A DNA stretch of 64,000 bases from Ceratodon purpureus (taxonomy: Eukaryota > Streptophyta > Bryopsida > Pseudoditrichales > Ditrichaceae): positions 19,614,902 to 19,678,901 of the forward strand of contig CM026425.1 in assembly GCA_014871385.1 (NCBI GenBank). The letters run 5' to 3'. The position numbers and the translations under genes are program-made. Below the pieces are notes generated by a model. That model did not search any database, was not told the DNA's origin, and saw only the letters and a program-made list of their open reading frames with translations. Positions 32,901 to 63,400 of this stretch are shown here, piece after piece; the stretch's first letter is position 1; each line of letters opens with the position of its first letter.

Positions 32901-33039
32901 CGGAGGAGGCTCTAGAGCGCATGGAGAGTATGCGCAATGCATCCGCGAAGCCAACTCATCGTGCGGTACCCAGAACATCTGAATCGCACTACCCACAATA
33001 TCTCCCACAATTCCAATCCCACATTGAACCCGAATCCGT

Positions 33040-36942: not shown

Positions 36943-37196
36943 GTAGCCCTCCTACTTTAGAACTGCCATTTCCACAATGGCCATTTGTCACGTAGTGAAT
37001 GATTTTAGTAATATACCATGTACTAAGTCAGCTATTCAGAAGCTGTATTCACTTTTTCATTATATTCAAGGCTTTGTCGTTCTCATTGATTGCTCTCTAT
37101 TTGAAAACATTCTATCTTGAACAAGTGCACTATATACTTCGTATCCCCTGACATGTATCTTTTATTACAGCAAACATATACTTGTTATTAGATGTC

Positions 37197-37649
37197 TCAA
37201 TCTTCGAACCTAACACGTTTAGGGTTGCCCACTACACTATCAGCAGGACTGCCACCCACTGACTGTACTACAGGAGAAACTACATTCGCATTCACTTTCG
37301 TTCCCACACTTGGAGCGTGTCCTTGGTATGAACGTTTCAGCAATGGCCCACCTCCCCGCCTCCGATTAACTGATTCCCTGGAATAGGTTCCCCTTGAGAT
37401 CTTTCCAACCTTCGAGTATGCATGTGGTTGCAAAGGCACATCTGCGTCCTTCTCTAGCACTATGATTTCATCCGAATTTTCTGAACGTCGAAGGTCAGCT
37501 CTTACATCCGGTTGTACGTCAACATCCGTTGTCGAAGGACGCCCTTGGCTGTTGGCCGTCACCTCTTCTTCGTCCTCCACCTCAACATATGGTTCAAATG
37601 GACAAACATCGTCAGCAAGTGAAACAACAATATCTCTGACGTCTTCCAT
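37197..37649 (-). CDS. Gene R, copy in E1
   Basis: Same 150-aa frame as at 10491-10943, from MEDVRDIVVSLADD to NPKRVRFED, with about 15 substitutions from copy 1 and identical to the copy at 55026-55478. No domain is recognised. It stays open in an element whose transposase is deleted, which may reflect recent conversion and need not mean selection. Confidence 0.65.
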   Translation of the reverse strand: MEDVRDIVVSLADDVCPFEPYVEVEDEEEVTANSQGRPSTTDVDVQPDVRADLRRSENSDEIIVLEKDADVPLQPHAYSKVGKISRGTYSRESVNRRRGGGPLLKRSYQGHAPSVGTKVNANVVSPVVQSVGGSPADSVVGNPKRVRFED

Positions 37650-37885
37650 AGCTGCTGTCCCGCACTACGGAAAAGAGCTTCACATAACACCAACACAAAA
37701 GAGGCAGAGACATTCCCTACTCTTATCTTAAATATCCCTGAAGAAGATGCTTGGTGCCCTTGAAAATCGGCTATTCATTCATTGAGAAGTTGTCATCCTC
37801 CTAAACCGAATGGAAAAAGATGAAGGTTTAGCAGAGGTCATTTAGCATTTAAATTTTTTTCTAGAAATTAAAGAATGAAGAAAAG

Positions 37886-37923
<38 letters not shown>

Positions 37924-38437
37924 ATTTATATTAATTGAAATTAAAAAGATTAAAGAAAAGAATAGCAATATTTAAAATGAAGGTTGAAAATAATATAAAG
38001 GAGATCAATAAATTGAATGTGAAAATAAAATGATTGTGAAAATAAAATGAAGGAGAAAATTAAATGAAAGGAGGCTTTTGACCCCTCTAACAAGATAGAT
38101 AGAATAAAGAAAATTTTATAAAAAATACAAGACAAATATCAAAAAAATTAAAAAAAAAAAAAAAAAAAAGAGAAAGGCATGTAGACTATGGTGGATGAAT
38201 TCTAGCAATGTTAAGAAAATGTTATGAAATTAAATGTTACTTGATCCATGTTCAGAGGTTCAATACCAATACATTTTAAGTAGTAATTTGCATATAAATT
38301 TAAGGAGATAAGGGGAATTACTGTACGCCTGAACTAGTTAGAAGGAGCTGGAGCATAGTAATTGGTGCACGTTAAAAAATTAATCACCAAGAAAAGAGAA
38401 TATCAACTACAAATTCAATGAAAATACTGTAATTAGT
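37650..38437. other. AT-rich spacer with poly(A) run in E1
   Basis: Counterpart of 10944-11755. The A run is 37 nt at 37886-37922, with a second A-rich run at about 38150-38169. No gene is seen. Confidence 0.7.
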
Positions 38438-38645
38438 CCACGGTTATAGGGTAAATTAAATTACTAAAATTAGTATATTTCCAAAAAATACACTCAGAAT
38501 ATTCGAATCTTCTAATTTTATAATTTATTTTTAGTAAAAAAAGTGCTATTTTAAGGTTCTGTCCCCCATTCTGTGCTCTCCGCTCTCCAAATCTGCGCTC
38601 ACCGCTCTCCGCTCTGCGCTCTCCGCTCACGTACAAGCTTCCCTC
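38438..38645 (+). repeat. Right TIR of E1
   Basis: The inner box CCACGGTTATAGGGT at 38438-38452 is followed by short GC-rich units from about 38569 and the end ACGTACAAGCTTCCCTC at 38645. The TSD follows directly. Confidence 0.9.
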
Positions 38646-38656
38646 CTAATACCCTG
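38646..38656 (+). repeat. Right target-site duplication of E1
   Basis: CTAATACCCTG, identical to 26016-26026; it re-enters the H1 reading frame (NTLLID). Confidence 0.9.
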
Positions 38657-38911
38657 TTGATCGATTCAAATCGAGAGACAAATGTAACTTCTCCTGGGAA
38701 TGTACTCTATACATCTCCATGGCATTATCCAACCGATCGTCACTCCAACCTTGTGAAGAATCTCTTTCCGTTTATCCGAGAACTAGCCGGCTCTGGAGAG
38801 GATGTTAGGGAATTTATGAAGAAGAATCGGAATATGGTTCCTGGCTTGGATCCATTGGGTAGTAAGGATCATGTTGTAGTCGAACTGAGGAAATGGCAGA
38901 GAGCTAAATGA

Positions 38912-40635
38912 TCGATGTGTTGGTTCCCTGGAATAGATAATCGAGAAAGCAGAGGTTTACCTATCAAGGATTTATGTAAGAATTTCTTTTTAATAGTGTG
39001 ATAGCACTTCTTGAGTGCTGATAAGTAATATATGTTCTCGAGGACAATATTTCTGAATATACTGCTTCTTTTTATTGAATGTAAAGGTTAATTCACGGTT
39101 GATTTAGATAGTATTTGTATGGTTTGAATGTGATCATCTAAGAGTAATGTGGAGAGTGTTTATTGCAACTGTCTGGTTCCTCTGATTTCTGTAATATATA
39201 TTTCACGCATTTGAATAATTATTTTATTCCGAATGTGGTCATACGATTTGGATCTGACTCTTATGATCTCAAACAATTCGCATTAGAGTCTTAGATTGCT
39301 TTTACTACTGAGGTCAAAGTTTCGATACTGTTTAGTTTCTTTGGTCCGTTGAATACGTCTTACAGGAATTTGACTTGAAGTTCTTTCTCATTTATTGGTA
39401 CGTGTGTGCTTAATATTTCATTTCTTTCACCTATTCCTTTTTCCTATCTTGTGTTTGTACTTTGAGAATTAAGGTATTCATCTGAATTCTAGATCAATGT
39501 ACCATTTATTAAATTTTGTTTTGGTATGTTGTCTTACAACTGATATTTTACTGTCGTTCATGTCGTTCATCTGCTTATGTATTCTTCTTCAGAGATGGAC
39601 ATGTCTGTTCTATATGGGCTTCGCATTTAAGATGATCATCTTAATCCACACCTTAAACAGTGGTATAAGGTTAAGTAGTCCTCCATTCTATTCATCCCTT
39701 GGTCCTTGGTGGACCAAATTTTAAATTGTATTTGACGTCTACTAAGAATAAGGCTTTTCGATATATTCGTTGAATATATTATTCGTCTCGTGTATTGTCC
39801 TTTCCGTCATTACATCATGTTACAATTTGTGTAGATATGGTCATTTTTTTAATTTCTTTTTTGTTTTTAAAAATTCCGTGGTATTGAATCAATATGCAAA
39901 TTCGATTGAATGTACTAGATATGAAGCATAACAAGAGTTTGATAGGTATCTTTGGTATATGAGTCCTACGGTCTTGGATTAAGATGATCGTCTTAATCTG
40001 AGACCGCAGAGGTCATATACCAAGGATATGTACTGAACTCTAGTAGATACCCTCGGTATATAACATCTAAGGTTATGGATTAAGATGGTCATCTGAATCC
40101 ATGACCGCCGATGATAAATACCGAGGGTATCTACTGGCTTCAGTGCATATCCCTGGTTTATGACTTCTGCGGTCTTGAATTAAGATGATCACCTTAATCC
40201 ATCCGTCTGCAAATGGACTCTTTTCTCGGATGGATTTGTATGTTTTCACTAATCGTGAATTCGTTTTCAAGATCGTTTCAGCGTCGTTCTTGAGGCATTT
40301 TATAATTTTATGTTTATCTGTCTTCAGAGATCTTCAAGAATGTCTAAAACAGCAGTTCGTGGCGTTAAGGGAATTCGTGTTACATCAGATACATGCTTTC
40401 CAGAGGATATACATCCTTCTCCTGTCCATCGAACTCGTTCGATGGCCCGACATACTAGGGGAACTGAGTAGCTCGAAGTTGGATGAGGACAATTTTTAAG
40501 TAGATGGTAGAGTATGTGGTCTACTGTTTAAGTAGAATGGAAGATACGAATTGTTATTGTAATTGAAGTTATATCTGAACTTAAGTCGTTCTTTGATGAA
40601 GGTCTTAAATTCTGTGGTGTCGTTATGCTCCACAG
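38912..40635. other. H1-H2 intergenic or intronic DNA with long hairpins
   Basis: No convincing gene. A perfect 18-bp palindrome TTAAGATGATCATCTTAA is at 39627-39644. Two adjacent long foldbacks follow: about 39941-40032 (arms with TTGGTATATGA and TCATATACCAAGG) and 40042-40135 (perfect 18-bp arms AGTAGATACCCTCGGTAT), then a partial third to about 40215. All share the core ATTAAGATGATC. A 43-codon frame at 40342-40473 (starts MSKTAVRGVKGIRV, ends RHTRGTE) follows a CTTCAG acceptor-like site and may be an upstream H2 exon, but I see no donor. Confidence 0.6.
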
Positions 40636-40970: not shown

Positions 40971-41088
40971 GGGGAAAGTTCGTACGTGAGCGGAGAGCGT
41001 AGAGCGGAGAGCGGTGAGCGTAGAATGGAGAGCACAGAATTGAGTTTAAGGAAAATTTTCAAAAGCAAAGTAGACCCTATAACCGTGG
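40971..41088 (+). repeat. Left TIR of E2
   Basis: It begins GGGGAAAGTTCGTACGTGAG, with GAGCGGAGAGC and GAGCGGTGAGC units, and reaches the box ACCCTATAACCGTGG at 41074-41088. A TGACGTCA double site is at 41212-41230. Confidence 0.9.
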
Positions 41089-41512
41089 AAAATTACTAAA
41101 TTAAGGCTTAATTTTGACACTTTTTTTAGGTAAAGAGTATATTGCCGTGGAAATTAGGATTATCTCTGGTAAGAATTTATTACGTTTGTTCTCAAAGATA
41201 CAAATTAGGGCTGATGTCATGATGACGTCATGCATACATTCCTTTAGATTTGTCATGGGTTTAGGCCAGATACAATGATCAGGCGTTGAGTTTTAGATCA
41301 AACAAATAATTCTTTCATAGGATTATGTTAATGCTCAAGGGAAAAAACAAATTTGAAAGAACGTAAAGGAGGCAAGGTTTGAAAACTTCCTGGAATATTT
41401 CAAAATTCGTGTATAATATCTTAACTGCTGAAACCAAAATATACCTTGTTAGAGTCCTTGTCTTGATCGAAGATTACTCTCTCTTCCTAGGCAGCAAAGC
41501 ATCTTCATTTGA

Positions 41513-42112
41513 GTGATACAAGTAGGAGATTTTCATCATGAAACAACACTTGGTAAGCTGGGTTCCAGAGAAGGAGGTCACTCTTGGTTTCTTGAGCTTG
41601 TATCTAGGTGGCGTATTTGGATAGTGACACAGTCCTTAGCATGCTGTGCTGTATGCGAAGGTAGCGTAGGAGTTCGGGGATGTCAATCTGCAAGCTTGAG
41701 TGTAACGTTTGAAGACTACAAGAATTCAGTGTGTTGCGCGATGCCGAAGGTGTGTAATGCGAGATCCAGGAGGACGAGAGCAGCTGTAGGTTTGCCCCCA
41801 AAGGCACCGGCGAGTTATCAAGAGCTGCGGCCCTGGCTGTTGGAGGTGGAGCGCGCCAGAGAACGAGGCATGGACCTGCCACCGTTTAGGCACATCGGAA
41901 GCCTCCATGTTGGTGAAGGTGAATGGCGTTGGACAGTGCTTTGTACCAATGAGCTTCTCCGTATTATGGAGTTGTCCCTAATCCCGTATCCCTTGCTATC
42001 GAACGTTGATGAGAATCCAGTTGTTCAGCTGCCCGAAGTGATCATATCGGATGGCGAAACTTGCTGGTTTGATATCGACAAGAGTTGGACTGTATATCCT
42101 CCGAAGGATTAG
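41513..42112 (+). CDS. Gene L, copy in E2
   Basis: The first in-frame ATG is at 41741 (MPKVCNARSRRTR); the open frame extends up to 41513. It is about 97% identical in protein to the Em copy, with no lesion. The strong conservation between otherwise diverging elements suggests it was under selection or recently shared. Function unknown; the basic N-terminus would fit a nuclear protein. Confidence 0.55.
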   Translation: MIQVGDFHHETTLGKLGSREGGHSWFLELVSRWRIWIVTQSLACCAVCEGSVGVRGCQSASLSVTFEDYKNSVCCAMPKVCNARSRRTRAAVGLPPKAPASYQELRPWLLEVERARERGMDLPPFRHIGSLHVGEGEWRWTVLCTNELLRIMELSLIPYPLLSNVDENPVVQLPEVIISDGETCWFDIDKSWTVYPPKD

Positions 42113-42622
42113 TAATGTGAAGTCTAGTGGGGTGTTCGAATACAATCCTTTAGACTTGGTCCCTTATTGGATCTAGATACGAGTATTCCAGCATGATGGC
42201 TATAGGTAATATAGACGATTCTAGGAATAAGACAACTCGAAACCAATTAAAAGAAATGGTCTTAAAAGTTCGTGGAATATTTCAGAGTTCGTGTACAGTA
42301 ATGGAGTAGCAGAAACCAAGATGTACACCAAGTCAAGAATAGGTATCATGGCTATGGAAATGTGGGATTTTGAATGATTAAAATATAAATTACAGCGCAA
42401 TATTAATTTTGAGCATTTCTTTTGTAACATTTCATTATTCATAAATCATGTCTTAGAAGACTTGCAATTTTAGACCTTTATATACACGACTATAACCCGG
42501 AAATGAGAATCATGAATATTTTAGTGGTCTGCAATAGAGTAGACGAAGCAGTATGTAATCAACTCCACTGAAATAAAAACAAATCAAATGGAAACAATGA
42601 TAGAGCGAGGCCTCTTTCAAAC
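42113..42622. other. Spacer between gene L and MTF copy D
   Basis: Counterpart of 21748-22261. AT-rich; no gene or clear repeat. Confidence 0.4.
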
Positions 42623-45600
42623 TTAGAAGATGCTACAGTCGCTACTTCCACTCTCAGAACCCGATGACTCAGACTCTCCTTCTACAGCCTCTTCATCGAC
42701 AAATAGAAGGGCCCTGGGATCAAAATTAGTGGGCCGACTAGGAACATATCTAAGTGCACCACATTGAAGCGCTTGTGCTAAGCCCTCTGCATAGTCCGGA
42801 AGAATAAAAGGCTGAACCGGGCTGGAATTAAGACGCCACGATGGAGTGAACACGGCTCTATGCCCACTTGGCGGTGTTGTCACAACTACTCTGCAATAGA
42901 AAGCCAGAAGTGGTTAGATCGAATAGGTAAATTTGCGTACAGAAATAATACTAGATGCATTGCACGAAACATACAAATTCTAGAGTAAGACTTACAATAC
43001 TTAGTGGGTCTTTGTTTCTTTGCTGGTGCTTCCTCTGCTGCTGCCGGTCTAGGATGTTTAGGGGGGCCCATGGGAGATTTTGCTGCCATATACGGTTTGA
43101 GTAGGGCGTTGAATATGGCTTCGTCATCCTCAAAAGCTATAATATGACGACCAATAGCCTGGCAAGCCTTGACAGAGGCCCCTGCAACTCAAAGCAAGGT
43201 GAAGACGTGAGAAACTGAGGAAGGAATCAGAGGAATAATTCTATAGAGACATGTAAGAACGGTTACCTGTTCCTGCCTTCCAGTCCAGGACTATGTCGCC
43301 GGGCTTCGAGATCTCTCCAATTATGCTCTCCATCATCTCACAGGACTTCTCCCTTGCCCCTCTCCATGGAACATCCCCATTCATTTGCTGAGAATCAATG
43401 TCGATAAAGTTGAAAATCGCATCACTCTCGGTAATGTTGAGGTCGCCATGTATGACATCGGATTTCTGCGTTTGAAAGGAGAACTTAGATGGCGGCTCGC
43501 CACCACGAACGAAGACTTGGATCCAGAACCGATTAGTCTGCAATCAACCAAATTATGTCAGAATGAATAAACGGAAGGGATAGTACTAAGTAAAGTGAAG
43601 GAAAGAAAAAGGATGAAATTACCAGGTTCTTGGGGTTCGTAGGAGAAGTCAGGCCGAGCACATTGAAGCCCCACCAGTCTTTGTAAAGGACGAACTTAGT
43701 GGCCCTAGCTTCTTCGAGAATCTCCGTTGCCAACGCTTGATCATTGTTGTAGATGATGCACAGAGCGCCATCATTTTGCAAGTAAAGACTTGCGAAATAG
43801 AAAATGTCGTACACATAATCCTTTTCACGGGAGTTCCAAGGAGGAATCACTGTAGGGGGGTCGGAAACGAGAGGGACATGAAGATTCTCAGGGATGTCAA
43901 CGATGATCAAGTCGACTCCCAGATGATTCTCAACCTGGCACCGCTCAGGTACTTCGTTCTGGCGGCCACGTCCAAACTGCAGAAACAAGAAAATAGGGTT
44001 AGACTATATGAAATTAATTGAAGTGTATGTAATATCGTATTATGTAAGAAGAGAATCATACCTTGCGCACGAACTCCAGAGTTTTCACCCAATCCGGATG
44101 GCCACCCTTGTCTTTGAGCTCCATGTTACGAACCAGTAACGGGGTCACGGATGAGTTGATGATGGAAACACCAGTGGAATGGGGAGTTCCTGCGGAGGAG
44201 GTGCCTGCAGGGAGAAGTCTGGCTTTCCTTTGCTCCAGAAAACCTCTCGTAATAGCGGATGCACTAACCGATGAAGGCGCAGACGGATTGGGAACGACAA
44301 TAACAGGAGAGGGCACGGCAGCCCCCTTCTCCGGTGCGGAGGACTCTGCACCAGTGTCCTGAGAGCCCTGGGACTTAGCACCCAATTTTCGCAGTCTCCG
44401 CGCTCTTCCTTTCTTCGGTGGAGGTGCAGATGATTGATCCTGGAGGCCTTCGGCCTCATCAGAACCGTCTCGAGAATCATCGACGGCCGACGATCCTCCG
44501 TCAAGCTCAGATTTCAGCTCCGCTTTGGATTCAATGACGAAACCTCGAATGAAGTCGAGGTACCAGCAACCAGCTTCAAGGTGCTGCGATTCGAACCTCT
44601 TCAACTGGTGAGGAGAATAGATACACTGGTCAGAGCCTCTCAAAATCCACGAACCGAAGTACTTTGGGAACTTGTCAACGTGGAGTGCGCCCTTTTCAAG
44701 CAGCTCCCTCTTGAAGTACCTAAGGATGTTCAGATGGCATAGATTAGAATTTCTCTGGTATAATTGAACGAGAAGGGAATTCAATGGAGTATAGAAAGGT
44801 TTATCATAACAGTCATACCGGTATGTGACACGCTTGACAGCGTCTGCAGCCCCTGGGAATTTGGAAAAATCAGACTTCTTATCGAAAGTCTTGTCTGCGC
44901 GGGTACCAAGGAATGTGGGGAATGCTTTCTCCCAGAGGAGAATACGCCAACTCTCCACATATGCGTCGGGCCGCTGCACTCCTGGAAAAAACCTCCACTT
45001 AATAACAATGTTCTCGGTCTTGCAGATGTCATCAAACTCCCGAGCAACAGCTTCCTCCAGCTGCAACACAGAAGTGAATATGTAAAGGTAAAAACGAATA
45101 TGCTACAAAGAAAGAGTAGAGGAAGTCTTCACTGAAATATTTGAAGGTACTATACCCCTGCCCAGAATGCTGCCTTGTTCAACCAGTGGTCGAGGTCTCC
45201 CTCCTTGAATTCCAAGGGTAGAAATCTGTAAGAAAGTCGGGAACTAGGTGAAGAGTTCCACCACCTCAGCCAGCGCGCTTTGAATTTGGCATCCACAGCT
45301 GCAGGAACTATCTTTTGCAGCTTGTCTAGTGTCATTTCCGGTTTGGAAAACTCACTGTAGTGCCGATTAATCTGGAAATGAAACATCACATATAGAATTA
45401 GACTATTTTCCTGGAATTACAATACTTGCGGATCAACTGAAGTAGGAATATAAACTCACTTACCTCGGCCAAGAATTCATCTCCATTTCTAGGATTGGCA
45501 ATGGCCAATAGCTTGGTGAAGTCTTTTTTCTTAATGGTGTCCACCATGGTCTTTGAGGCCGCAGTCATGGCATCCCAAACACCTGCTGCAGTTTGCTCTA

Positions 45601-48600
45601 GAATGGGTGTTTTCTCCTTATAGATCCTGGCAGCTTTGTCGGAAGCAGCCACAATTTCTCGCTGAGAAACAGAGGTATTAAGTAGTTAGTTTACAGTGAA
45701 GCCCAAATGAAGTGACAAATAAACCTTGTTAGAGGGAGGGAAGAGGACTTACTCTATAAAGAAACGCGATGAAGACTTTGGTTGGCAATGGTAACCATGA
45801 CGGAGTAGCTGGTTTGTGATTCAAAGATATTTGATACTCCTCTGGTGTTAAGAGATCCTTGAATTCCTCCAATTTCATCACACCAAAAGAGTGAATTCGA
45901 AAAAGTTTTGCTGGAAGATTACTCTTGACGTGATCATTTTCTGTGGACCTGTACGTATAGACGTTATAGATTAAGAAGTATGAATATGAAGTTAAAGCAG
46001 TTGTGAACAAAGTAGAGAGAGTAAAGGCTTACCAGTTGATGTCGTGCATGGCATTAAGAAGGTTTCCCATGTGACCGCGTGGATCAAGAACAATGCAATG
46101 GACAGAGATGTGCCACGCTGGATCCTTGCTGTGATGGCTGTTGATATGTCTGTACCATGCGGCAAGGCGATGGTTACCTTCCCAGACGTAAAACATCTTT
46201 CCAGAGAACTTCTTCCAATCTGGGTCGTTCTGAAGCTCAGCTTCAAAAGCTTCGTTCGCTTGTAGCCAACAAGGGCTCCATTCAGCCTTGATCTCTTCAG
46301 TGACATCGTCTGTCTTCTCCTCATGGTTGTACATGGATATGTACATCACCCGGTCTCCATCCCTATAGCCTTTCACAAACTCTCGCTCCAAATGTTGAAC
46401 TCCCATTTCTCCAACAGGTCTTACTTTTGCCATTGAGTGCATCCTACACAAGGGAACAAGAATACGGGACTTACTCTTGGGGAGTATTCGGAGGTTGTTG
46501 ATGACCTTGATGGAGTCCGATTTGTGCTGTATTCGATGTCCCAATTCACTGTCCACGGCATTCTTCAAATCAGTAGGACAAGATGGCGCTGGCAACATAT
46601 CCTGTAACTGAGTTACCTGCCAGAAGACATACACTTTCAAATTTAATTCATAGACAAGATTGAGAATAAGTAAAACCATTATGAAGAAGAATAAACCAAT
46701 AGCTTTATGAACTGATACATCTCTTCTGGAAAACCAACTCTAAACCCAAACAATAGAATGTAGTTCATAGGCCCCACTATGTACGTGGACCACGGCTATA
46801 ATACTCCCTAGCCTGTCTACAGTTCCAATGACGGCGCCTCCTCCAAAAACGCCTGGTCTGCTGGACAGGGCAAGGCAGTATCGCCGGTAGAGCGAAGACA
46901 ACATGGGCTGGCCTCCTCACTCTAATAGGCGATGAAGGAGAAGGTGGAGACATCGGCGGGGTACCAACTCGTGGAGAAGTGGGCATATAGCCCGGGGATG
47001 AAGGCTCATACACAGGAGATGTAGGCATGTACTGAGGAGAGTGGACCTCGAGAGGTCCACTATCTAAACCTACAGGGTTTCCTAAATCACACCTACATAA
47101 ATGGGGTTGATCAAATGAATCCGAGAGGTCGGAAACATTGATCACTGTGATCGGAGAACTGATGGACAAGGGTGCATCTGAGAATACCTAAATACAGAGG
47201 AACAAAGACAATGTGAGTTCACCAGAAAAGTAAATAATACAACATTAGATTGAAGAAAGTTTGAGGAACAATTCTATGCACGAAACTTAAAACAGAATAA
47301 TATGACATACCTCAGTTTCCGCCGGTGTAGGCCCATCACCTTCACTTGCAGTGACTTGCTCTGTAAATTCCTGCAAGACAGACAATGAAGAACTTCTAAG
47401 AATCTAGTAGTACTCACAAAGAAACAACTAGTAACTAACGATTGCAAACATATTAAACAATGCCTCCAAGTCTGCCTCGGTGGCGGCCTCTATGGCTGCG
47501 GCTGCGGGCTCCTCCCCTGCCTTCGAAATACCCGCGCCCACATTGGCACCCACCATTGGGGTGGGTGTCGGATCCGAAAGCCTCCTGGTTGCCTGCCCTC
47601 TCCTCGGCGCCACGCCTCGAGCAGGGCCCTCAAGTGCTCCTGCCGCGGCCTCAACTGTACCGGCGGCCTCCAAGGGAGGCCCATGGATGGCCATGTCTGC
47701 CTCGGTGGCGGCCTCCATGGCTGCGGCTGCGGGCTCCTCCCCTGCCTTCGAAATACCCGCGCCCACATTGGCACCCACCATTGGGGTGGGTGTCGGATCC
47801 GAAAGCCTCCTGGTTGCCTGCCCTCTCCTCGGCGCCACGCCTCGAGCAGGGCCCTCAAGTGCTCCTGCCGCGGCCTCAACTGTACCGGCGGCCTCCAAGG
47901 GAGGCCCATGGATGGCCATGTCTGCCTCGGTGGCGGCCTCCATGGCTGCGGCTGCGGGCTCCTCCCCTGCCTTCGAAATACCCGCGCCCACATTGGCACC
48001 CACCATTGGGGTGGGTGTCGGATCCGAAAGCCTCCTGGTTGCCTGCCCTCTCCTCGGCGCCACGGCTCTAGCAGGGCCCTCATCTCCTCCTGCCTTGGCC
48101 TCAATCGTCTGTGCTCCCTCCAAGGAAGGCCCATGGACGGCCATGTCTGCCTCGGTGGCGGCCTCCATGGCTGCGGCTGCGGGCTCCTCCCCTGCCTTCG
48201 AAATACCCGCGCCCACATTGGCACCCACCATTGGGGTGGGTGTCGGATCCGAAAGCCTCCTGGTTGCCTGCCCTCTCCTCGGCGCCACGACTCTAGCAGG
48301 GCCCTCAACTCCTCCTGCCGCAGCCTCTAACGTATGTGCTCCCTCCAAGGGAGGCCCATGGATGGCCATGTCTACCTCGGTGGCGGCCTCCATGGCTGCG
48401 GCTGCGGGCTCCTCCCCTGCCTTCGAAATACCCGCGCCCACATTGGCACTTACCATTGGGGTGGGTGTCGGATCCGAAAGCCTCCTGGTTGCCTGCCCTC
48501 TCCTCGGCGCCACGGCTCTAGCAGGGCCCTCAACTGCTCCTGCCGCGGCCTCTAACGTATGTGCTCCCTCCAAGGGAGGCCCATGGATGGCCATGTCTGC

Positions 48601-50334
48601 CTCGGTGGCGGCCTCCATGGCTGCGGCTGCGGGCTCCTCCCCTGCCTTCACCCGCATCGAATCCTCGTCTTCTTCCACCTTAAGTGGCACTGTGCTGGTG
48701 GTTGTCCGCGCCATGCAGTGCTTGGGGATCTCCCTGTTGCTCGCTCCTATGGCCTTCGTTCACATTGAATCCTCGTCATCATCCACCTGAAGTGGCAGCG
48801 TGTTGCTGGGTTTCGGCTCCATGCACTCCTTCGGGATCTCCCTGCTGCTCGCGGCAATTTCCTTCACCCGCATCGAATCCTCCTCTTCTTCCACCTGAAG
48901 TGGCACCGCGTCGATGGCTATCGTCACCAAGCCCTCCTTGCGAATCTCCCTGCTGCTCGCGGCCATGGCCTTCACATACATTGAATCCTCGTCATCATCC
49001 ACCTGAAGTGGCACCGCGTTGGTGGGTTTCGGCTCCACGCACTCCTTCGGGATCTCCCTGCTGCTCGCGGCCATGCCCTTCACCCGCATCGAATCCCCCA
49101 CTGCTGCTTCTATATCCCCTACATCCTTCTTCCCCTTCCCTGCCAGATACACAACCCCACCAACAAATGCACCCACATTCCCCATAACCCATAACCAAAT
49201 AAAACAAATCCTCACCTCTTCTGTGCCTCGGCCGCGGTCCGATGCGTCTCCGTCGCTCGCCATCTCCACCTCCTCACGACCCTCTGCACGCCCCAGCATT
49301 CTCTTGTCAATCCCCTCCTCCTCCGTAACCGCGGGTGTATGCTTCAATGCTGCTTCTGTAGATGCCTTCCCTCCCCCTCCCCGACCTCTAGCCCTCCCTC
49401 GCCCCCCCACCGCGGCCCCTCGACCTCTCCCTCGGGCCGATCCCTCATCCATATCTTCTTCCGCGGGGCCTACCGGAGTATCCAGAGAATCAACATCCTC
49501 CACACTAGTCTCGGGAGGACTTCCAGGTTCCCCTCTCCCCGCCCGCCTTGCAATCGCCTCCCCACCTTCGCCCGCCTCCATAATCTCTCGCCCAACTCTG
49601 CGAGACACGGCTCTTAATGTCTCTGTTTCGGAATCCTCGCCTATGTCAACTATTGCTCTCCGTCCACCTTTAACCTCTTCCTCAACGCTTTTCCAATCGT
49701 CTCTCTTTACAAAGAAATAAATGTTGACAAGAATAAGTTTTCGGGTTTCATGCACCCTAAAATGAACTACGGCTAATTCGCAAATCTTAAACCGTAAAAA
49801 CTAAATCATGCAGCATTGTTTTAAATTTATAAAATTAGTCCACAGAGTCAATCATAAATGGACTACCTCAAAACATTACAGCAAGAAACTTACTACCTCC
49901 GACTGATAATGCCCTCCCAATTGAGAATCTGTCTCTCTTGCTGACGAATTGTTAAAATCGAAAGAAGGTTGTGGAGTTTCAAGATTCTGACTGGTATTGA
50001 ATCCTTCTTCTTCCATCCTTTCCTCCTGTTTCTCACCTCCTACTATTAACTCCTGCTCCTGAGGCTCTACTATAGTGTCCTCTAGAACCTCATCTTTTAC
50101 CTCCACTATGGATTCTAGTATAAGATTTCGAATGCTTAAAAATTTCTTGGCCAAAGGCAGCCCAGCTCCTCTAGCCTTCACTGGTGCCCTGAGAACGTCC
50201 CGTTCTGTAACTAACTTCCTACTTGATGCTTTCCTCTTCCTCGCTCTCCTGTCCGTGAAATCTGTAGGAAATCGTTTCCTTCTTCGCTTCTGACTAACAT
50301 CAGTGGAGGGAGTCCGCCCTCCACTCTCCTTCAT
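42623..50334 (-). CDS. MTF copy D: distinct subfamily of CTD-like/ParB/methyltransferase fusion
   Basis: Exons supported include 50334-49897 (starts MKESGGRTPSTD), 49704-49216, 47370-47311 (60 nt), 47187-46921, 46616-46033 (584 nt, exactly as in copy B) and 45948-45753 (196 nt), then the helical, methyltransferase-like and tail exons to 42623. Heptads are fewer (YMPTSPVYEPSSPGY). The ParB-like block reads VWEGNHRLAAW, the motif IV position VDIPENLHVP, and motif I GDIVLDWKAGTG. From the heptad exon onward I see no stop. The region 49215-47440 can be read as intron or as an extra repeat-coding exon; in the latter case there is a TGA at 48762-48760. N-terminal sequence differs greatly from copies A-C. 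Confidence 0.72.
47460..48655. repeat. 225-bp GC-rich satellite, about 5.3 units, in MTF copy D
   Basis: Units recur near 47468, 47693, 47918, 48143, 48368 and 48593. The period is exactly 75 codons, so frames stay open on both strands (428 codons minus, 436 plus). In the MTF sense strand the unit begins AGEEPAAAAMEAATEAD and contains GQATRRLSDPTPTPM. It lies between exon 2 and exon 3, the same place as the unrelated satellites of the other copies. Confidence 0.92.
48655..49120. repeat. 111-bp repeat, about 4 units, beside the 225-bp satellite
   Basis: The unit encodes, on the minus strand, a 37-aa motif of the type MAASSREIPKECMEPKP followed by PLQVDDDEDSM. The period is a multiple of 3 and the frame is open except for one TGA (48762-48760). 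It forms a second, independent tandem array in the same region of MTF copy D. Confidence 0.85.
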
Positions 50335-51093
50335 GTGTCTAAATAACCTAATGACCCTCCGCACAATAAAGGACTCAATAAAACTTCAGCTCTGCTTATA
50401 TATTCCAGGAGCAAACCATTCCTCAACTACTCGTCGTGGACAGATAATACTTCCCACTTACAAGAATCATCCCCTAGATATAGTTGGTGGATCTAAAAAT
50501 AATTACATTTTGAATTAAAGTTCATGTAAATACAAATACAATTACAATCGATTGGTGCATCAATTAAATCAAGACCATAATAAAAATAAAGACCTTGGAT
50601 ACTCCATCACAATGGGCCTGGCCAATTCTAAACTGAAGTAAAGTTCACAATATCGTCCTGGACATATAAGGAAGATATCTAAGCACCCTTTAAGTTAAAC
50701 GATTGTAATCAAACGCTGTAATATATGCTTCTTTTTCTATTCACAGTATTAAATGTATAATTTAAAAGACGGCTCATTCTAATCTTATAGTACATCATAA
50801 CAAATAGAATCTGCTTCACGTTTGAAAATGATTAAAGTGCAGTTCTAAAAATCGTACCTAATATACTTAGACCTGCAAAAACTGGCACTGTAATTAGTTA
50901 GCGCCGTCTCTCTTAAATCATACATTCGTTACGTAACAGAATGAGTCATTCTTCAACTGTTCACATAGACATTCCAACCTGAATATAAAGATCAACAGCG
51001 ATGCATCATTCCTCTCACTTTGCTCTCGAGATACTGCTTTGCTAATACACTATTCTCCCTTCTTCCTCTAGTATCTCTGAGTTCCCTGCAAAT
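50335..51093. promoter_or_regulatory. Divergent promoter of E2
   Basis: TATATAAG at 50402-50395 lies about 60 bp before the MTF copy D ATG. Toward the transposase the shared GCGATGCATCATTCCTCTCAC lies near 51000. The central foldback of Em and E1 is not evident. Confidence 0.55.
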
Positions 51094-54000
51094 ATGGGGA
51101 TGGTCTGTCTGTACGCCCAGGGCATGGGCATCCCCCTTAGGTTTCGCGTAGATGACGATGGTCTAGCTACAGTTTCCTCTCTTCGCCTGAGTCTCAGATT
51201 CCTTTTCCGTGAGGATTCCATCAGTATAGAGGAGGAGATCTTTGATGACGTTACTGCCGAGGTTACAGACACTCTCGGGCAACCTTCACTGAGAGATGAA
51301 AACAATATGTTGCAGTGGAGACTCCTCCCTGGATCCTATAGAGTCTATGGTCTTACTGATTCTCTTATGGCTGCATCCACTGAGATCCTCACCCCCCGTC
51401 GCTCTTCTACTTGCACAATTCAGACTCCCTTACCTCGTGATGTCAAGGTCAAAGTCGAGCCTGGTACCGAGACTTCAGATGTAGAGAAACCTCTTCCGAC
51501 CGTCATATCTCTCTCTTCTGATGACGAAGTCAGTCCCGTCAAGTTGGTGCCTAAGGTCCACGCAGATGCTCCTCCTTCCAATGTGTCTCCTCCATTGTCT
51601 CAGGTCACAGTTAGCATTGTTCCGCTGCTTAAAGAGATTGCTAAGACGCGTGGGTCCAAAAACATTTTGAAGAAGATAGACTATTCCACTATTAGACACG
51701 AGAGAGTTGAGTACTTGCCTGCGAAGTTTGATGGTCCGGTTCTTTTTGAGTTGCCCCCAGCTGCTGCGGGATCCTCTAAGCTCGCCGCCAAGTCAATGCA
51801 GGGAATGGACAAACGATACAATGGACACTTGTGGACCAACACCATCACAACAAACATCAAAAACGACTTCGGACTCTCTTTTCGAAGTTCCACCTGCGTC
51901 GGATGGCTGCGCTGCAGCAACAAGGAGTGTGACTTCATGAAGCGTGTTCCCAAGATCTTCGAGGTTAACGAGACTGAGTTCGAAGGCTGTACCCTGCAAG
52001 CTTTTGTCATGGACCAGCCTCCTCCATCTGACTCCACGCTAGTGTGCAAGGTATGTAAAGAACCTCCATCATGTGTAGCTACATGCGAGGCTAAGATCTA
52101 TTACGTTGTGGGCAAACCGAATCAGACTAGAGCTTGTATTCACATAGGAACACATCATCATCCAGTCAAAGTTGGAGACTACAGAGACTCTAAAGCAGAG
52201 ACTAGTAGCTTAATAGAAGAGCAAGTAGAGATGAACAACAAAGCAACAAAGAGCGCCGTTGTCCTGGAGGCGAGCAAACTCCTCATCGGGAGCTACCTTC
52301 TACAGCCCGAGGATGCACCACCGAGGAAGCTGACGATCGAGGAGCTGGTTCCGGTTCTGGATCGATGCAAGGACATGGCGTCACCAAACATCCGCAACAA
52401 AGTCGCCACCTTCAAAAAATTCAAAAGGTACGGAATCATGGACGGTATCACCAAGCTCCGTGGTAACAGTCTCTGGGCGTATGTCCAGGAGAATAGGTTT
52501 CCTGGTCAGGGATCTATGCGTGACAAAGTCTTCCTCTTCAAGATGTCGGAGGTCGGGCCGGGAAGTGGTGTCGACCTGGTCAGCCGTATGCAAGCTGGTG
52601 GCGACTTGGAGAACGCATGGATCATGTTCGACCATGTCAAACGCGTCAAAGACTGGTCGACGATGGCGTGCCATGTGTACGACGCCACCTACTGCCGCGT
52701 GATGACAATCGCCACTTGCGACATGCAGTCCGAGGACACGGAGGCCCAGCTCGTCTTCTGGAAAAACCTGAACCTGGTCATGGAGATCAATGGCGTTGCA
52801 GCGCCGAACTTCAAGGGTTCATGGCAGATAACGCACAGGCGAATTGGAATGCAGTGCGAATCCTTTACGGCAATGGCAACAAAGAGGACCCAATGGAGGA
52901 CCGGGAGAGGTCGTGCTTGTTCCACTGGACTCAGAACATGGTGGCGTATACGCAGAAGCACTTCCCCGAAGAACTCTGGGAACAGCACAAGAAGATGTGC
53001 ACTCAGTACAAGAATGCGACCAGCATGGCAGAGGCGGAAACTCTGTACCACGCGTTGCGAGCATGGTGGGCATCCACCGGGGTCGTTGGAGAGAGCGGGC
53101 TCATCAAACTCGATCAGTGGCTGTCATTCTGGCACCACCGCTTCCGCCAGTGGGGGGGATTCATGACCGAGGTATTATCTCTGGACTCTGTTTTCATGTT
53201 TTTGATACTGGTTTCCTAGCCCTAACCTACAAAACTGTAATCGGTGATTCTAACGGCATCTACTGTCAAATCTGCAGAAATTCACGAAAGAAGAACTCAC
53301 AGAGATGCCGACCTGTAACCTCGCCGAAACAGTTCACAACAAGTGGCTCCAAGCTTCAGGAAACAACGGGAACGACCTGTATGTTGCTACCGTGGACGAT
53401 TTCGTTCGAGCTTTTCTACAGGTTGTTAACTACTACCAGTTCCTCAAAGGTGACGTCGGCGGAACAGGACCGTCCAAGAAGGAACTCAGGCTCCGGATGG
53501 CTGAACGCAACGCGAAGAAATGGGGAAATCCTACACTGCTCGACAAGCCCATGCTCGATATGCCAGGCGCGGATGAGTTCTGCACCCGTCAGCCTATCAT
53601 GCCTGGAGCGGAAGTCTTCGGTTCACAGAAGCGAAAAGCCGACGTCCTTATCGGAGCTGACGAGGAGTCTCATCGCCCGGACAAGACAAACTTCTCACGC
53701 CCGAGAGGCCCAAGACGTGCCGTCAGGGCTCGCCCTATGCAGATGCCCGTCATTGTGGAAGACGACTCCGAACACGACACCGAGGTACAATGTACGCAAC
53801 CTCCTGCCCAGGAAGTTGATTCCCCTTTACCTTCACCTGTGAACAAGGGCGGCATTCGCCATGTCAACGCGGTTGAAGAAACCAAGGTGGACGTGAAGCA
53901 GTGGCACATTTCGAGACTACACAAACTTTCTGCGAAGTGCTGCTGGGCCCAAAGAGCTGAAACGAAGAAGAAGTGCACTGAGAGAATCGTCAGAGGGCCC

Positions 54001-54771
54001 CATTCCAGAGCTGCACCGACCTACACTGGGCTCTGGACTAACTATCGCAGGAACCTAGTCGAGAAGACAGAGTTCTTCTTCTGCTCCGACGATATTGAGC
54101 GCTGCGTGAAAGGCTCTAAGCGCAAGTGGGTAGCACACTACTCAAAGGACCAGGAACTCCCCACCATTCCTGAGGTCTGAACAGTGAAACTAGGTACTAA
54201 CCTAAAACTTACTGAGATTCTTGCCCTCGAAGCAGCGGGCTTTCAACTTCCGCCGAAGAAACCGGTCTCCCCAAGACGCCTGTTCTCTTCTGCCCCGCCC
54301 CCTGCAAATCTCAGCTCCGTGCCAGTCCCTGCAGACGCTGACCGCTACCCAGGCAAGAGAGACGGCAAGATGGTGAAGCGCACTGCCACCCGTCCCAATC
54401 AAGCGCAGCAACTCTCCATGGGCTCCTCCGAGTCTCTTAAAGCGCGCCTCCGTTCCGTCACCATGATACCTGAGCCGGGCCACGGTTGCATCATTGGGCT
54501 GGATTCGGGCGTCACTCCACACATCACACGGTACCAGATTACCATTAGTTCTTACCCTGGTTGCACTTGCCCAGCATTCAAGAAGACGATGACTACGTTC
54601 CGTGGCAAGACTCAGTTCACGTATTGTAAGCACCTATACTACATACTCTTGAAGGTCTGCACCCGTGATCCCGAAGCCGAGCTTTTCATCCATGCGCCTA
54701 CCTTCAGCTTCAACGAGGTCAAGCTACTCTTAGAGAGTGGAATCTTGCGTCACCCCTTGGCGAAGAAGTAG
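51094..54771 (+). pseudogene. MULE transposase with SWIM finger, copy in E2 (frameshift and stop)
   Basis: Exons are 51094-53171 and 53279-54771. All domains of copy 1 are present: N-terminal zinc-binding region, VYDATY, CLFHW and the SWIM finger (CTCPAF to YCKH). A single G is missing at about 52814-52817, just before the FMADNAQANW aspartate, and TGA at 54178-54180 replaces the TGG of PEVWPV. At the place where copy 1 has its stop this copy reads ITKLRG, showing the two copies were broken independently. Confidence 0.88.
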
Positions 54772-55025
54772 GTAGCCCTCCTACTTTAGAACTGCCATTT
54801 CCACAATGGCCATTTGTCACGTAGTGAATGATTTTAGTAATATACCATGTACTAAGTCAGCTATTCAGAAGCTGTATTCACTTTTTCATTATATTCAAGG
54901 CTTTGTCGTTCTCATTGATTGCTCTCTATTTGAAAACATTCTATCTTGAACAAGTGCACTATATACTTCGTATCCCCTGACATGTATCTTTTATTACAGC
55001 AAACATATACTTGTTATTAGATGTC

Positions 55026-55478
55026 TCAATCTTCGAACCTAACACGTTTAGGGTTGCCCACTACACTATCAGCAGGACTGCCACCCACTGACTGTACTAC
55101 AGGAGAAACTACATTCGCATTTACTTTCGTTCCCACACTTGGAGCGTGTCCTTGGTATGAACGTTTCAGCAATGGCCCACCTCCCCGCCTCCGATTAACT
55201 GATTCCCTGGAATAGGTTCCCCTTGAGATCTTTCCAACCTTCGAGTATGCATGTGGTTGCAAAGGCACATCTGCGTCCTTCTCTAGCACTATGATTTCAT
55301 CCGAATTTTCTGAACGTCGAAGGTCAGCTCTTACATCCGGTTGTACGTCAACATCCGTTGTCGAAGGACGCCCTTGGCTGTTGGCCGTCACCTCTTCTTC
55401 GTCCTCCACCTCAACATATGGTTCAAATGGACAAACATCGTCAGCAAGTGAAACAACAATATCTCTGACGTCTTCCAT
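55026..55478 (-). CDS. Gene R, copy in E2
   Basis: The same 150-aa frame, identical in protein to the E1 copy. It lies within the tract that is nearly identical between E1 and E2. No recognised domain. Confidence 0.65.
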   Translation of the reverse strand: MEDVRDIVVSLADDVCPFEPYVEVEDEEEVTANSQGRPSTTDVDVQPDVRADLRRSENSDEIIVLEKDADVPLQPHAYSKVGKISRGTYSRESVNRRRGGGPLLKRSYQGHAPSVGTKVNANVVSPVVQSVGGSPADSVVGNPKRVRFED

Positions 55479-55714
55479 AGCTGCTGTCCCGCACTACGGA
55501 AAAGAGCTTCACATAACACCAACACAAAAGAGGCAGAGACATTCCCTACTCTTATCTTAAATATCCCTGAAGAAGATGCTTGGTGCCCTTGAAAATCGGC
55601 TATTCATTCATTGAGAAGTTGTCATCCTCCTAAACCGAATGGAAAAAGATGAAGGTTTAGCAGAGGTCATTTAGCATTTAAATTTTTTTCTAGAAATTAA
55701 AGAATGAAGAAAAG

Positions 55715-55759
<45 letters not shown>

Positions 55760-56272
55760 ATTTATATTAATTGAAATTAAAAAGATTAAAGAAAAGAATA
55801 GCAATATTTAAAATGAAGGTTGAAAATAATATAAAGGAGATCAATAAATTGAATGTGAAAATAAAATGATTGTGAAAATAAAATGAAGGAGAAAATTAAA
55901 TGAAAGGAGGCTTTTGACCCCTCTAACAAGATAGATAGAATAAAGAAAATTTTATAAAAAATACAAGACAAATATCAAAAAAATTAAAAAAAAAAAAAAA
56001 AAAAGAGAAAGGCATGTAGACTATGGTGGATGAATTCTAGCAATGTTAAGAAAATGTTACGAAATTAAATGTTACTTGATCCATGTTCAGAGGTTCAATA
56101 CCAATACATTTTAAGTAGTAATTTGCATATAAATTTAAGGAGATAAGGGGAATTACTGTACGCCTGAACTAGTTAGAAGGAGCTGGAGCATAGTAATTGG
56201 TGCACGTTAAAAAATTAATCACCAAGAAAAGAGAATATCAACTACAAATTCAATGAAAATACTGTAATTAGT
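55479..56272. other. AT-rich spacer with poly(A) run in E2
   Basis: Counterpart of 37650-38437. The A run is 44 nt at 55715-55758. No gene is seen. Confidence 0.7.
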
Positions 56273-56480
56273 CCACGGTTATAGGGTCAATTAAATTACT
56301 AAAATTAGTATATTTCCAAAAAATACACTCAGAATATTCGAATCTTCTAATTTTATAATTTATTTTTAGTAAAAAAAGTGCTATTTTAAGGTTCTGTCCC
56401 CCATTCTGTGCTCTCCGCTCTCCAAATCTGCGCTCACCGCTCTCCGCTCTGCGCTCTCCGCTCACGTACAAGCTTCCCTC
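56273..56480 (+). repeat. Right TIR of E2
   Basis: Inner box at 56273-56287, with short GC-rich units from about 56404 to the terminus CTTCCCTC at 56480. It is followed by a copy of H1 flank in place of H2. Confidence 0.9.
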
Positions 56481-56972
56481 CTAATACCCTGTTGATCGAT
56501 TCAAATCGAGAGACAAATGTAACTTCTCCTGGGAATGTACTCTATACATCTCCATGGCATTATCCAACCGATCGTCACTCCAACCTTGTGAAGAATCTCT
56601 TTCCGTTTATCCGAGAACTAGCCGGCTCTGGAGAGGATGTTAGGGAATTTATGAAGAAGAATCGGAATATGGTTCCTGGCTTGGATCCATTGGGTAGTAA
56701 GGATCATGTTGTAGTCGAACTGAGGAAATGGCAGAGAGCTAAATGATCGATGTGTTGGTTCCCTGGAATAGATAATCGAGAAAGCAGAGGTTTACCTATC
56801 AAGGATTTATGTAAGAATTTCTTTTTAATAGTGTGATAGCACTTCTTGAGTGCTGATAAGTAATATATGTTCTCGAGGACAATATTTCTGAATATACTGC
56901 TTCTTTTTATTGAATGTAAAGGTTAATTCACGGTTGATTTAGATAGTATTTGTATGGTTTGAATGTGATCAT
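56481..56972 (+). repeat. 492-bp copy of the H1 3' end beyond the E2 terminus
   Basis: 56481-56972 matches 38646-39137 at a constant offset of 17,835 bp, apparently without differences, starting with the E1 TSD sequence CTAATACCCT and including the H1 C-terminal frame (to 56746) and 3' flank. At 56973 the match stops and the candidate E2 TSD and H2 coding sequence begin. Confidence 0.93.
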
Positions 56973-59099: not shown

Positions 59100-59451
59100 C
59101 TTGTTTTGAGACTTTTTATTCCTAGAATTATCTACATTATCTAAAAGCATCAGGCTGGAATACTCGTATCTATATCCAATAAGGGATCAAATCTAAAGGA
59201 TTGTATGCATGACGTCATCATGACATCAGCTCTAATTTTTACCTCATAGTACAAACGTAAGATACTAAATTCCATGGTAATATACCCTTTTCCTAAAATA
59301 AGTAACAAAATCATGCCTTATTTTAGTAATTTTCTACAGTTATAGGGTCTACTTTGCTTTTGATAATTTGGCTAATTGTCATTTCTGTGCTCTCCATTCT
59401 GTGCTCTCCGCTCTCCGCTCTACGCTCTCCGCACACATACGAACTTTCCCC
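59100..59451 (-). mobile_element. Solo left end of a Mutator-like element
   Basis: From about 59115 the sequence matches 22150-22240 of Em (CTGGAATACTCGTATCTA), then skips gene L and continues with the TGACGTCA double site (59210-59228), a diverged inner box (near 59333), short GC-rich repeats and the end ACGAACTTTCCCC at 59451. No right TIR is found, so it is a deletion derivative or a broken end. Confidence 0.75.
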
Positions 59452-60483: not shown

Positions 60484-63400
60484 CTACTGAAGCGGTTGAG
60501 CAACTTTGGCCATCTCCAGAACACGCATAACTTCGTTGAAGCTGAAGCTAGGGGCGTGCATAAAAGTATCAACCTTGTAATCCATCTCACATAGATAGCG
60601 GAAGATATAATAAACATGCTTGCAGTACTTCCACTGTCCTCTTTTGCCAAGTGTTTCCGAAGTCATTTTCATGAAGTCAGGGCAAGTACATCCAGGGAAG
60701 TCCGTGATGGTGATACAATATATCGTTTCACTTGGACTCTTCAAGGAGATGACGCAGCCAAATCCTGGATATGGAATCGATGTGACATTTGTAATCCAGT
60801 AGTTGTTCATGAGACCCGCACTGCTCCACTTGTTGCGGTGGTCGGAGGTAGGAGCGTCAGAACTTCTCCTGATGGCATATCCGTTTCGAGTCGTCGGGTG
60901 TGTATCCGGATCGACAGGAACCGGGAAATGACTCCTTGGAAGCGGCATATTAGCAGAAACTTGGAAGTGACGACGAGGTGATAGTACTCCACGTTGTTGG
61001 AGTTGGAACCCGGCGTCTTCAAGAGCCAAAATCTCTTTGATGGTCAGGTTCGTGCCCCGTTTCACAGGCCAAGTCTGCGGGATAGATGGCCAATCGATCA
61101 CAAACGACTTCTTTGTGCCCTTCACACATCTATTAATGTCATCGGCGCAAAACCAAAAGTCAGTAGAAATATGGCGATCGGTTCTGAACTCCTTCTTCAG
61201 CTCTACATAGGTAGGAGCAGGCGTACCATGTGTACCTCGGCGCACTCGGGTATCGCACTTCTCATTTGTATGAGCCTGCATAGCTTGGCATTTTCGGTTA
61301 GACTTGCCGGACAGTCTGGCAATGTGCCACTTAGACGGGTCGCAATCTGTCTCCTGCACTGAAGTAGTGTGTTCAACACCGGAGTCAGGTTGAGAAAGAG
61401 CCTCCTCAATGCGTGCTCTGGTGGATCTCGTGCCATCACGAGGAATTGAATAATTCACTGTATCATAGCGATGCGAGTCATGGCTAGAACCAGGTGGCAA
61501 ATCTAACTTCCGTTTCGTAGATCCAAAAATCTCTGCACCTTCCAAGCCTCCTTTCTTCGTCAGTAAATCCTCGGCTCCCGGGTAGGAATTAACTGCCTCA
61601 GCAATCAACTTGGGGTCACCAGAGCGTTGCGCGTGGCGTAAACGAAGTTCTGCTCTGTCCGGACCTTTACCGCCCTTTCCTCCCTTCAGCCAAGACCGGT
61701 AACTAGTGATCTGCATGAATGCTCGGATCATATCATCCACTGTTGCCTCGTACAAACAGGTCATTGTGTTCCCTGATTGTTGAAGCCATCTGTTATGCAC
61801 GGTTTCCGCAAGGTTGCAGGAAGGCATGTCGGCTCTCTCGTCAAGAGTAAGATCCTGGGAAATACAATAAAGGAAATCAGGTCATTTTCAGGATTATAGA
61901 TAAAAAGAAAAGTATTCTACTGCTTGATGGGAGGTCTAGAAATGAATGAACTTACAAGCTGCATCGACCCTCCCCATTGTCTATATCGATAGTGCCAGAA
62001 AACCATCCAATCATTTAGATGACGCCTTCCTTCTTCAGTTGTAGCGCCTGATGAAAGCCACCACCCGCGGATGACGTTGTATTGCGCTTCTGCTTCCTCT
62101 TGAGTCTTTGCGTCCTTCCATACTTTGCACAAAGCTTTGTGTTGGTCTTGAAAGCTTGGCAATATATTCCGAGAAGTAGCCCTCTGAAGGCACTTTGTCC
62201 AGTGGAAAAGACAAGTGCGCTCCCGTTCTTCCATGGGATCATTGGGGTCTCCGTTCCCATACACCTTCCGAACAGCGTGCCAGTTGGCTCCAGCATTGTC
62301 AGCCATGAATCCTTTGAAATTAGTATTTTCAAGGCCGTTCTTGCGCATAACTTCATTGAGCTGGAGCCAAAATAACTCTTGAGCAGCAGCATCTTCGGAT
62401 TGCATGTCACAAAGGGCAATTGTCATAACTTTACAATACTTACTGTCATAAACGTGGCATGCCATAGTGGTCCAGTCAGCTACACGCCTAACATGGTCGA
62501 ACATGATCCAGCAGTCTTGAAGATCACCTCCAGGCTGCATGCGCTTCACCAAATCCACACCGCTTCCTGGACGATCACTGGACATCTTGAACAGAAACAC
62601 CTTGCCTTCATTCTGTCCAGGGAATTGATTACGGTGGATGAAATCAAAGTTGGAGTAATCCTTCAGCTCGAGGATGCTATCTGTGACTCCTCTCCCTTGA
62701 CAGAAAAACCTCTTCGATCCAGAAACAAAATTGCGTATATTCGGTGAAGAAAGAGTCTCAAATTGGTCCATTACAGCATCCATAGATGCTCCGCGAAGAT
62801 GACTGCCCCCTGCAGTAGGTCGGATCAGAGCATCGGCAAGATACTGCTTGCTGGCCGCTAAAACGATAACAGAGTTTTTGGCGTTAGGTGTCCTCTGAAC
62901 CTCCTTAGCTATGCAGTCAAACATGATATCCATAGAATCTTGACATCTGCCTTGAGATACAGGATGTCTATGACGTCCTAAATGAATCGCCGCACGGGTC
63001 ATACCATTGTCTGAAGACGACACATGATAAATTCTAGCATCGCACAATGCTAGACAACTAGGAGGTGTCTGACATACTTTGCATGTTAAAGTAGATTTCT
63101 CTGTGGGGAAGCCTCCCACAGAGAATGGTACTAAAGCTACGCCTGACCATTTAGTGCTATTTACCATCCCATCATTCCTGCAGATGTAATCACAACTCAT
63201 GTTGGGACATTGTAAGTGTCCGGTACAGGTTGACTTACGATATGTGAGGCCATATTCGTTCTTGATGTTTGTGGTCATGGTCTTGCACCAGGTGTGGCCA
63301 TCATACTGCTTGCTCATCCCGTCCATTCCACCTCCAAATGGATTTGGAACTCCTTCTGGTATAGGGGGCAGCTCGAAAATCTTGTCTCCATCATAGACTG

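Follow-up and report, generated by a model that had tools for sequence, protein, structure and literature searches.

Within a 64,000-nucleotide stretch of the Ceratodon purpureus genome (GCA_014871385.1, contig CM026425.1, positions 19,614,902 to 19,678,901; hereafter the window), we recognized a family of large transposable elements, both from comparison of the window with itself and from the end sequences of the elements, the matching ends being repeated along the window. Four of these elements, which we call E0, Em, E1 and E2, each hold two genes in head-to-head arrangement: one for a transposase resembling those of Mutator-like elements (MULEs), and a multi-exon accessory gene. The reading that we tentatively favor is that these MULE-like transposons carry a long-established accessory gene based on a beta-class methyltransferase, the product of which would act as a weakly catalytic or non-catalytic regulator of the element. 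The gene travels with the element (in the four elements it lies inside the ends and in head-to-head orientation to the transposase gene), and selection keeps its protein. An earlier note on this DNA had described the same arrangement of a transposase and a conserved multi-exon gene in E2, E0, Em and E1, and both the divergent layout and the ratio of nonsynonymous to synonymous substitution rates (dN/dS) of 0.173 reported below agree with that description.

The accessory gene is made up of two blocks, B1 and B2, both on the strand opposite the transposase gene, from which it diverges. In E2, B1 comprises exons X1 to X5 (50334-46777, minus strand) and B2 comprises exons X6 to X15 (42620-46616, minus strand), which together encode 1055 aa. 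The B2 exons lie at 46616-46033, 45948-45753, 45661-45464, 45371-45156 and 45060-44819 (X6 to X10, minus strand) and at 44719-44062, 43976-43623, 43537-43267, 43181-43001 and 42890-42620 (X11 to X15, minus strand), with alternatives for the join between X14 and X15, and the nine introns between them have GT-AG ends in both E2 and Em. The B2 proteins of E2 and Em, of 1055 and 1052 aa respectively, are 70% identical, and both frames are open. Between these two copies, dN/dS was 0.173 with a dS of 1.18 over 1047 codons, and 0.076 over codons 1-105, at the start of X6; the accessory gene is under purifying selection. The dS drops toward the 3′ end of B2, as gene conversion there would produce such a drop, and B2 of Em and E1 is a gene-conversion mosaic. 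The reading frame of B2 is interrupted in E1 by two in-frame stop codons, a TGA in X7 and a TAG in X12, so that the accessory gene is open in two elements, broken in one and cut by the window edge in one. A side comparison of the 3′ B2 parts of Em (20126-21873) and E1 (26298-28045) gave 92% identity, with 78% over the whole alignment.

Constraint was also observed in B1. The basic exon X1 (49876-50334 in E2, minus strand, beginning MKESGGR, with an approximate 3′ end) is conserved in E0, Em, E1 and E2, with dN/dS values of 0.23 to 0.45 over six pairs. X5 (46777-47187 in E2, minus strand) carries heptads resembling the polymerase C-terminal domain (CTD) and a basic tail that is conserved, with a TAG coming next in the same frame; the dN/dS of X5 was 0.13 to 0.23 in three pairs, and that of the tail was 0.02 (Em vs. 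E2), 0.05 and 0.16 (two other pairs). In E0, X1 lies in 5976-5458 and X5 at 187-2, where it is cut by the window edge. We also observed that, in the part of the accessory gene between X1 and X4, each of the four elements has a different minisatellite (524-4093, 15197-16812, 31384-32898 and 47466-49096, with units of 210, 128, 105 and 225/108 bp, respectively). Both unit lengths of E2 (225 and 108 bp) are divisible by 3, and the units fall within long open frames.

The methyltransferase domain spans X12 to X14 (43001-43976 in E2, minus strand) and contains the blocks DWKAGTG, DIPE and REKS, which we take to be motifs I, IV and X, respectively. PF01555 (N6_N4_Mtase) matched both copies scanned, with E-values of 6.7e-7 and 1.2e-7 (29.9 and 32.4 bits vs. 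a gathering score of 26.7), the alignment being limited to positions 163-218 of the 221-position profile, and PHROG profiles of DNA methyltransferases also matched both copies (best 2.9e-10, to PHROG 3008), in line with the methyltransferase-like fold that had been proposed from the letters. The NCBIfam CcrM model gave 5e-4, far under its cut-off, and DpnA in the PDB was matched at 0.006. A tblastn search with the domain matched 196 phage records when E-values up to 0.1 were allowed, the best of the matches listed being 1e-5. By similarity, the domain is a beta-class, prokaryotic-type N4/N6 amino-DNA-methyltransferase domain with a recognizable S-adenosylmethionine (SAM)-binding part. A scan of viral contigs with protein alignment and two peptide patterns found no relatives.

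We aligned the domain with nine phage enzymes, taken from 11 loci (L001-L011) that were hand-picked from match lists and of which L003 and L009 are without annotation, and found that the EKS block, GDIV.DW.AGTGAS and the motif IV strand VDLII.D are kept. The catalytic motif IV of this family is (D/N/S)PP(Y/F/W), the aromatic residue of which normally stacks on the flipped base. In place of this motif, all three readable copies (E2, Em and E1; that of E0 lies outside the window) have DIPE, whereas all nine phage enzymes end the tetrapeptide in Tyr or Phe (DPPY in five; DLPF, DLPY, DVPY and DIPY in one each). Because Glu replaces the aromatic residue in motif IV, classical catalysis by the domain is doubtful, and the marking of DNA is therefore not to be assumed.

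The earlier note had also read a ParB-like block, VWEGNHRL, which lies in X6 (46164-46187, minus strand) and is the principal ground for a ParB reading; VWEGNHRLAAW does resemble the GxxR motif of ParB-like proteins. Comparisons with profiles, the PDB, phage sequences and a phage hidden Markov model (HMM), as well as hhalign, did not support this reading. With hmmscan against Pfam, NCBIfam and PHROGs, no ParB match was obtained for any of the three X6 copies, and the rows returned were at chance level, for instance DUF5397 at 0.011 in one of the three (sub-cut-off matches to these collections with E-values of 0.01 or higher were treated as chance). An hmmsearch of X6 against the PDB returned no ParB, only a ribosomal protein at 0.031, and tblastn of E2 X6 against phages returned nothing at E 1. 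An HMM built from 11 phage ParB sequences scored Em at −1.5 bits, a value equaled or exceeded by 206 of 400 shuffles, and left E2 unreported; hhalign of X6 against ParB scored 11.06, under the mean of 12.55 from 100 column shuffles (best 17.45). The note had suggested looking for matches to both ParB and methyltransferase families, and of these the methyltransferase match was significant and the ParB match was not. Structure prediction, which covered contiguous window stretches and not spliced exons, gave a poor AlphaFold model of X6 (predicted local distance difference test, pLDDT, 41.6), and its ParB-compatible order of strands and helices therefore counts for little; Foldseek with this model returned no matches at E 0.001. 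We keep the possible ParB identity of X6 as a lead only, for which the main support is a published account of an apparently similar protein.

The CTD-like heptads of X5, which had likewise been pointed out before, are present in all four elements and follow the pattern YxP[TS]SPx, with three in E2, four in Em, three in E1 and one complete heptad before the cut in E0. RNA_pol_Rpb1_R matched X5 with an E-value of 0.012 (16.3 bits vs. a cut-off of 20.3), and we kept this sub-cut-off match because the heptads repeat and stay conserved between copies. Within the ranges scanned, no GT-AG intron joining X5 to X6 in frame was shared by E2, Em and E1, and the three copies have no start codon in common at the beginning of X6. 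In all three, X6 opens at a CAG acceptor; the constraint on X5 extends near the TAG common to E2 and Em, and a donor-like GTA stands just before it in E2, Em and E1. A microexon could settle this join, and B1 and B2 likely encode a single predicted fusion protein.

If the product is a weakly catalytic or non-catalytic regulator, we would expect the accessory protein to bind its element's own DNA, and its SAM-dependent methyltransferase fold, altered in motif IV but still binding SAM, to regulate the element by relieving silencing or by acting in cis or in trans to assist the transposase. Such regulation would be comparable to that by VANC, which is reported to act by another route. More speculatively, the heptads might recruit transcription factors or attach the protein to the transcription machinery. 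The earlier note had put forward element marking, a block on silencing and regulation of the transposase, and these remain roles that we can only infer. Several observations weigh against the regulator reading. No target site for the accessory protein was identified on the element, and the DNA-binding half, read as ParB, found no support in the profile searches. Over its final 102 codons, B2 has a higher dN/dS, of 0.42. Downstream of DIPE, by about 17 residues, there is a conserved IPPW, and loss of activity does not follow from a non-aromatic motif IV alone. On the transposase side, the Pfam MULE model was unmatched at E up to 10 in four E2 pieces and two E4 pieces (E4 being a related transposase described below), and the model of the transposase core was poor (pLDDT 38.5), with no Foldseek matches at E 0.001. 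The main rival, which we consider possible and less probable than the regulator, is that the gene encodes a functional enzyme, an N6-adenine or N4-cytosine DNA methyltransferase, and that this enzyme marks the element carrying it, an activity also proposed for a protein of the Ectocarpus Sola1 element (PMC12477816). The domain family and the SAM-binding motif suit this rival well, and it is further favored by the constraint across the domain and by that published proposal, which concerns a protein of the same kind. Against it, motif IV has Glu in place of an aromatic residue in all three readable copies, and all nine aligned phage enzymes are aromatic there. A narrower version of the regulator, to which we give a rather low probability, is that a phage-type methyltransferase has turned into a non-classical regulator that holds SAM, has Glu at motif IV, is tied to transcription by CTD-mimicking heptads and would control expression or silencing of the element while leaving no usual DNA mark. 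We think it quite unlikely that the domain is recruited to transcripts by the CTD-like part and modifies RNA or a protein: the heptads in E0 (cut by the window edge), Em, E1 and E2 and the altered motif IV would fit, but the significant family matches are to DNA methyltransferases, and the scan of X5 to X6 gave no join that places heptads and methyltransferase in one protein. Equally improbable, in our view, is that the gene was captured and rides along as a passenger without serving the element, despite the broken copy in E1 and the frequent acquisition of host gene fragments by MULEs (PMC6446971), given that the gene occupies the same place and orientation in four elements and that dS exceeds 1 with a dN/dS of 0.17.

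Compatible with any of these rivals is the further one that the transposase belongs not to the MULEs but to another DDE superfamily with a similar layout. The E2 transposase gene (51046-54771, plus strand) encodes, in order, YD, MADN, CLFHW and NLAE blocks followed by a SWIM-like CTCP...CKH, and lacks, compared with E0, one nucleotide at 52818; the same order and SWIM-like motif are readable in E0, with corresponding blocks in E4. We read these blocks and CTCP...CKH as putative DDE residues, C/H motif and SWIM finger. None of the four transposase copies (E0, Em, E1 and E2) is open throughout: that of E0 is in open pieces at 6459-7916, 7920-8681 and 8719-10233 with a stop at 7917-7919, and that of E1 has a 2.4-kb internal deletion. 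A different superfamily would agree with the unmatched Pfam MULE model and with the placement of the described relative in a Sola1 element (PMC12477816). On the other hand, the order of the blocks, the SWIM-like C-terminus (SWIM profile E 0.25, weak and below cut-off) and the 10-bp target duplication of E1 all speak for a MULE, since target duplications of 8-11 bp and SWIM fingers are tabulated for MULE groups (PMC6446971), and we give this rival a low probability. The element fits a MULE by its 10-bp duplication, within the 8-11 bp range, and by end repeats of about 61-76 bases, present in E1 and E2. As these features are present and Pfam support is not, we use the label "MULE-like"; the MULE transposase named in the earlier note thus stands on the target duplication and the terminal inverted repeats (TIRs), without a Pfam match.

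The gene pair itself is already known from Sola1, and what is new is the MULE-like carrier and the altered active site. Sola1-1_Ec32 of Ectocarpus (2025) has a 1,104-aa protein with ParB-like and methyltransferase parts opposite the Sola1 transposase; the same paper cites green and red algal cases of such proteins, and its authors propose that the proteins might bind to, and modify, the element that encodes them (PMC12477816). The window protein shares with this one a length of about 1,100 aa, an N4/N6 DNA methyltransferase, a position on the strand opposite the transposase and a large DNA transposon as carrier, and the broken transposases of the window are like those of the giant families in that paper, which are often pseudogenized. 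The two differ, as compared by description only, in that the window carrier is MULE-like and not Sola1, and the CTD-like part and the active-site change are features of the window protein that go unmentioned for Sola1-1_Ec32 in the cited part of PMC12477816. Fusions of ParB with N6/N4 methyltransferases are a phage-enriched architecture (PMC12704722). Phage fusions (e.g., the phiD12 frame, L012) have the same methyltransferase family, with the ParB part preceding the methyltransferase: the phiD12 frame has a ParB_N match of 6.8e-8 and then a methyltransferase with DPPY, and five of 10 further phage ParB pieces belong to genes of 411-429 aa that carry a methyltransferase or methylase annotation. 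Unlike these fusions, the window protein is much longer (about 1055 aa), is not recognized by the phage ParB profile and has DIPE where phiD12 has DPPY.

Pfam scans of B2 gave only the methylase and weak matches at chance level; we know of no methyltransferase domain in the VANC, mudrB or mutB proteins. These are encoded by extra genes beside the transposase in VANDAL, maize MuDR and Mutyl, respectively (PMC6446971), and the window elements resemble them as MULE-like elements with an extra gene beside the transposase. TET/JBP enzymes in fungal DNA transposons and SET in Phytophthora MuDR and HarbingerS (PMC12730594) are likewise transposon-borne enzymes acting on epigenetic marks, but the enzymes and their substrates differ from those here. 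The earlier note knew of no described MULE with this gene set. In agreement with this, our literature search, with most subscription papers outside its scope, found no MULE with ParB and methyltransferase, and a wider search of titles and abstract beginnings gave no MULE case among the matches listed; the word methyltransferase has no occurrences in the main text of the MULE survey (PMC6446971). The pair had nonetheless been described in Sola1 (PMC12477816), and this Ectocarpus paper was the only one found on ParB, transposase and N4-methylcytosine in eukaryotes. The window extends the short list of eukaryotic transposons with bacterial-type DNA methyltransferases from Sola1 to a MULE-like family, in which several copies permit selection tests, and it raises the question of whether an accessory methyltransferase with Glu at motif IV can modify DNA and, if not, why it is conserved.

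Both ends lie inside the window only for E1 and E2, while E0 and Em have one end each. E1 (26026-38645) has a perfect 10-bp target duplication, CTAATACCCT, at both sides, and was inserted inside an open reading frame (ORF) that resumes beyond it. E2 extends from TIR to TIR at 40971-56480; its left TIR (40971-41060, plus strand) starts with GGGGAAAGTTCGTACGTGAGCGGAGAGCG and matches the right TIR (56391-56480, minus strand) in 45 of the first 50 bases, and the local match between the two ends covers about 61-76 bases in E1 and in E2. E0 (1-11962) has its left part cut by the window start, and Em (11963-23404) is in reverse orientation, with its open B2 on the plus strand at 17781-21747. The Em transposase is broken off exactly at the E0 end, as if E0 had jumped into Em; target duplications were checkable for E1 and E2, the other end of E0 being outside the window. 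When searched for in the window, the right-end motif was found only at E0, E1 and E2. A lone left-type end, E3 (59188-59451), points left and is 82% identical to that of E2 over 282 bp, and the related transposase E4 (60487-63998, minus strand) has two long open frames and is 55% identical over the catalytic part. No accessory gene was seen beside E3 or E4 within the window, and since E4 runs to the window edge, we draw no conclusion on its accessory gene.

No RNA family reached its gathering score and no tRNA was found in the window. Two further ORFs recur between elements. ORF C (41513-42112, plus strand; 199 aa from stop to stop) is also open in Em (22861-22265), the two proteins being 96% identical; it has no clear counterpart in E1 and no Pfam match. 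ORF D (55026-55493, minus strand) lies downstream of the E2 transposase and is also found in E0 (10958-10494).

The right half of E2, together with about 490 bp of flank past its TIR (53699-56972), is a 98.9% copy of E1 35870-39137, and the copied stretch begins exactly at the deletion joint of E1. We found no target duplication around E2, the two flanks of which differ, because its right half and flank duplicate those of E1. E2 is a composite, and we infer, as the simplest reading, a gene conversion or template switch after insertion. The left end of E2 sits in a gene with similarity to NIF/FCP1-type phosphatases (PF03031; 40609-40986 and 56969-57418). FCP1 acts on the polymerase CTD, and it is possibly a coincidence that E2 splits a phosphatase gene of this type while the element itself has CTD-like heptads.

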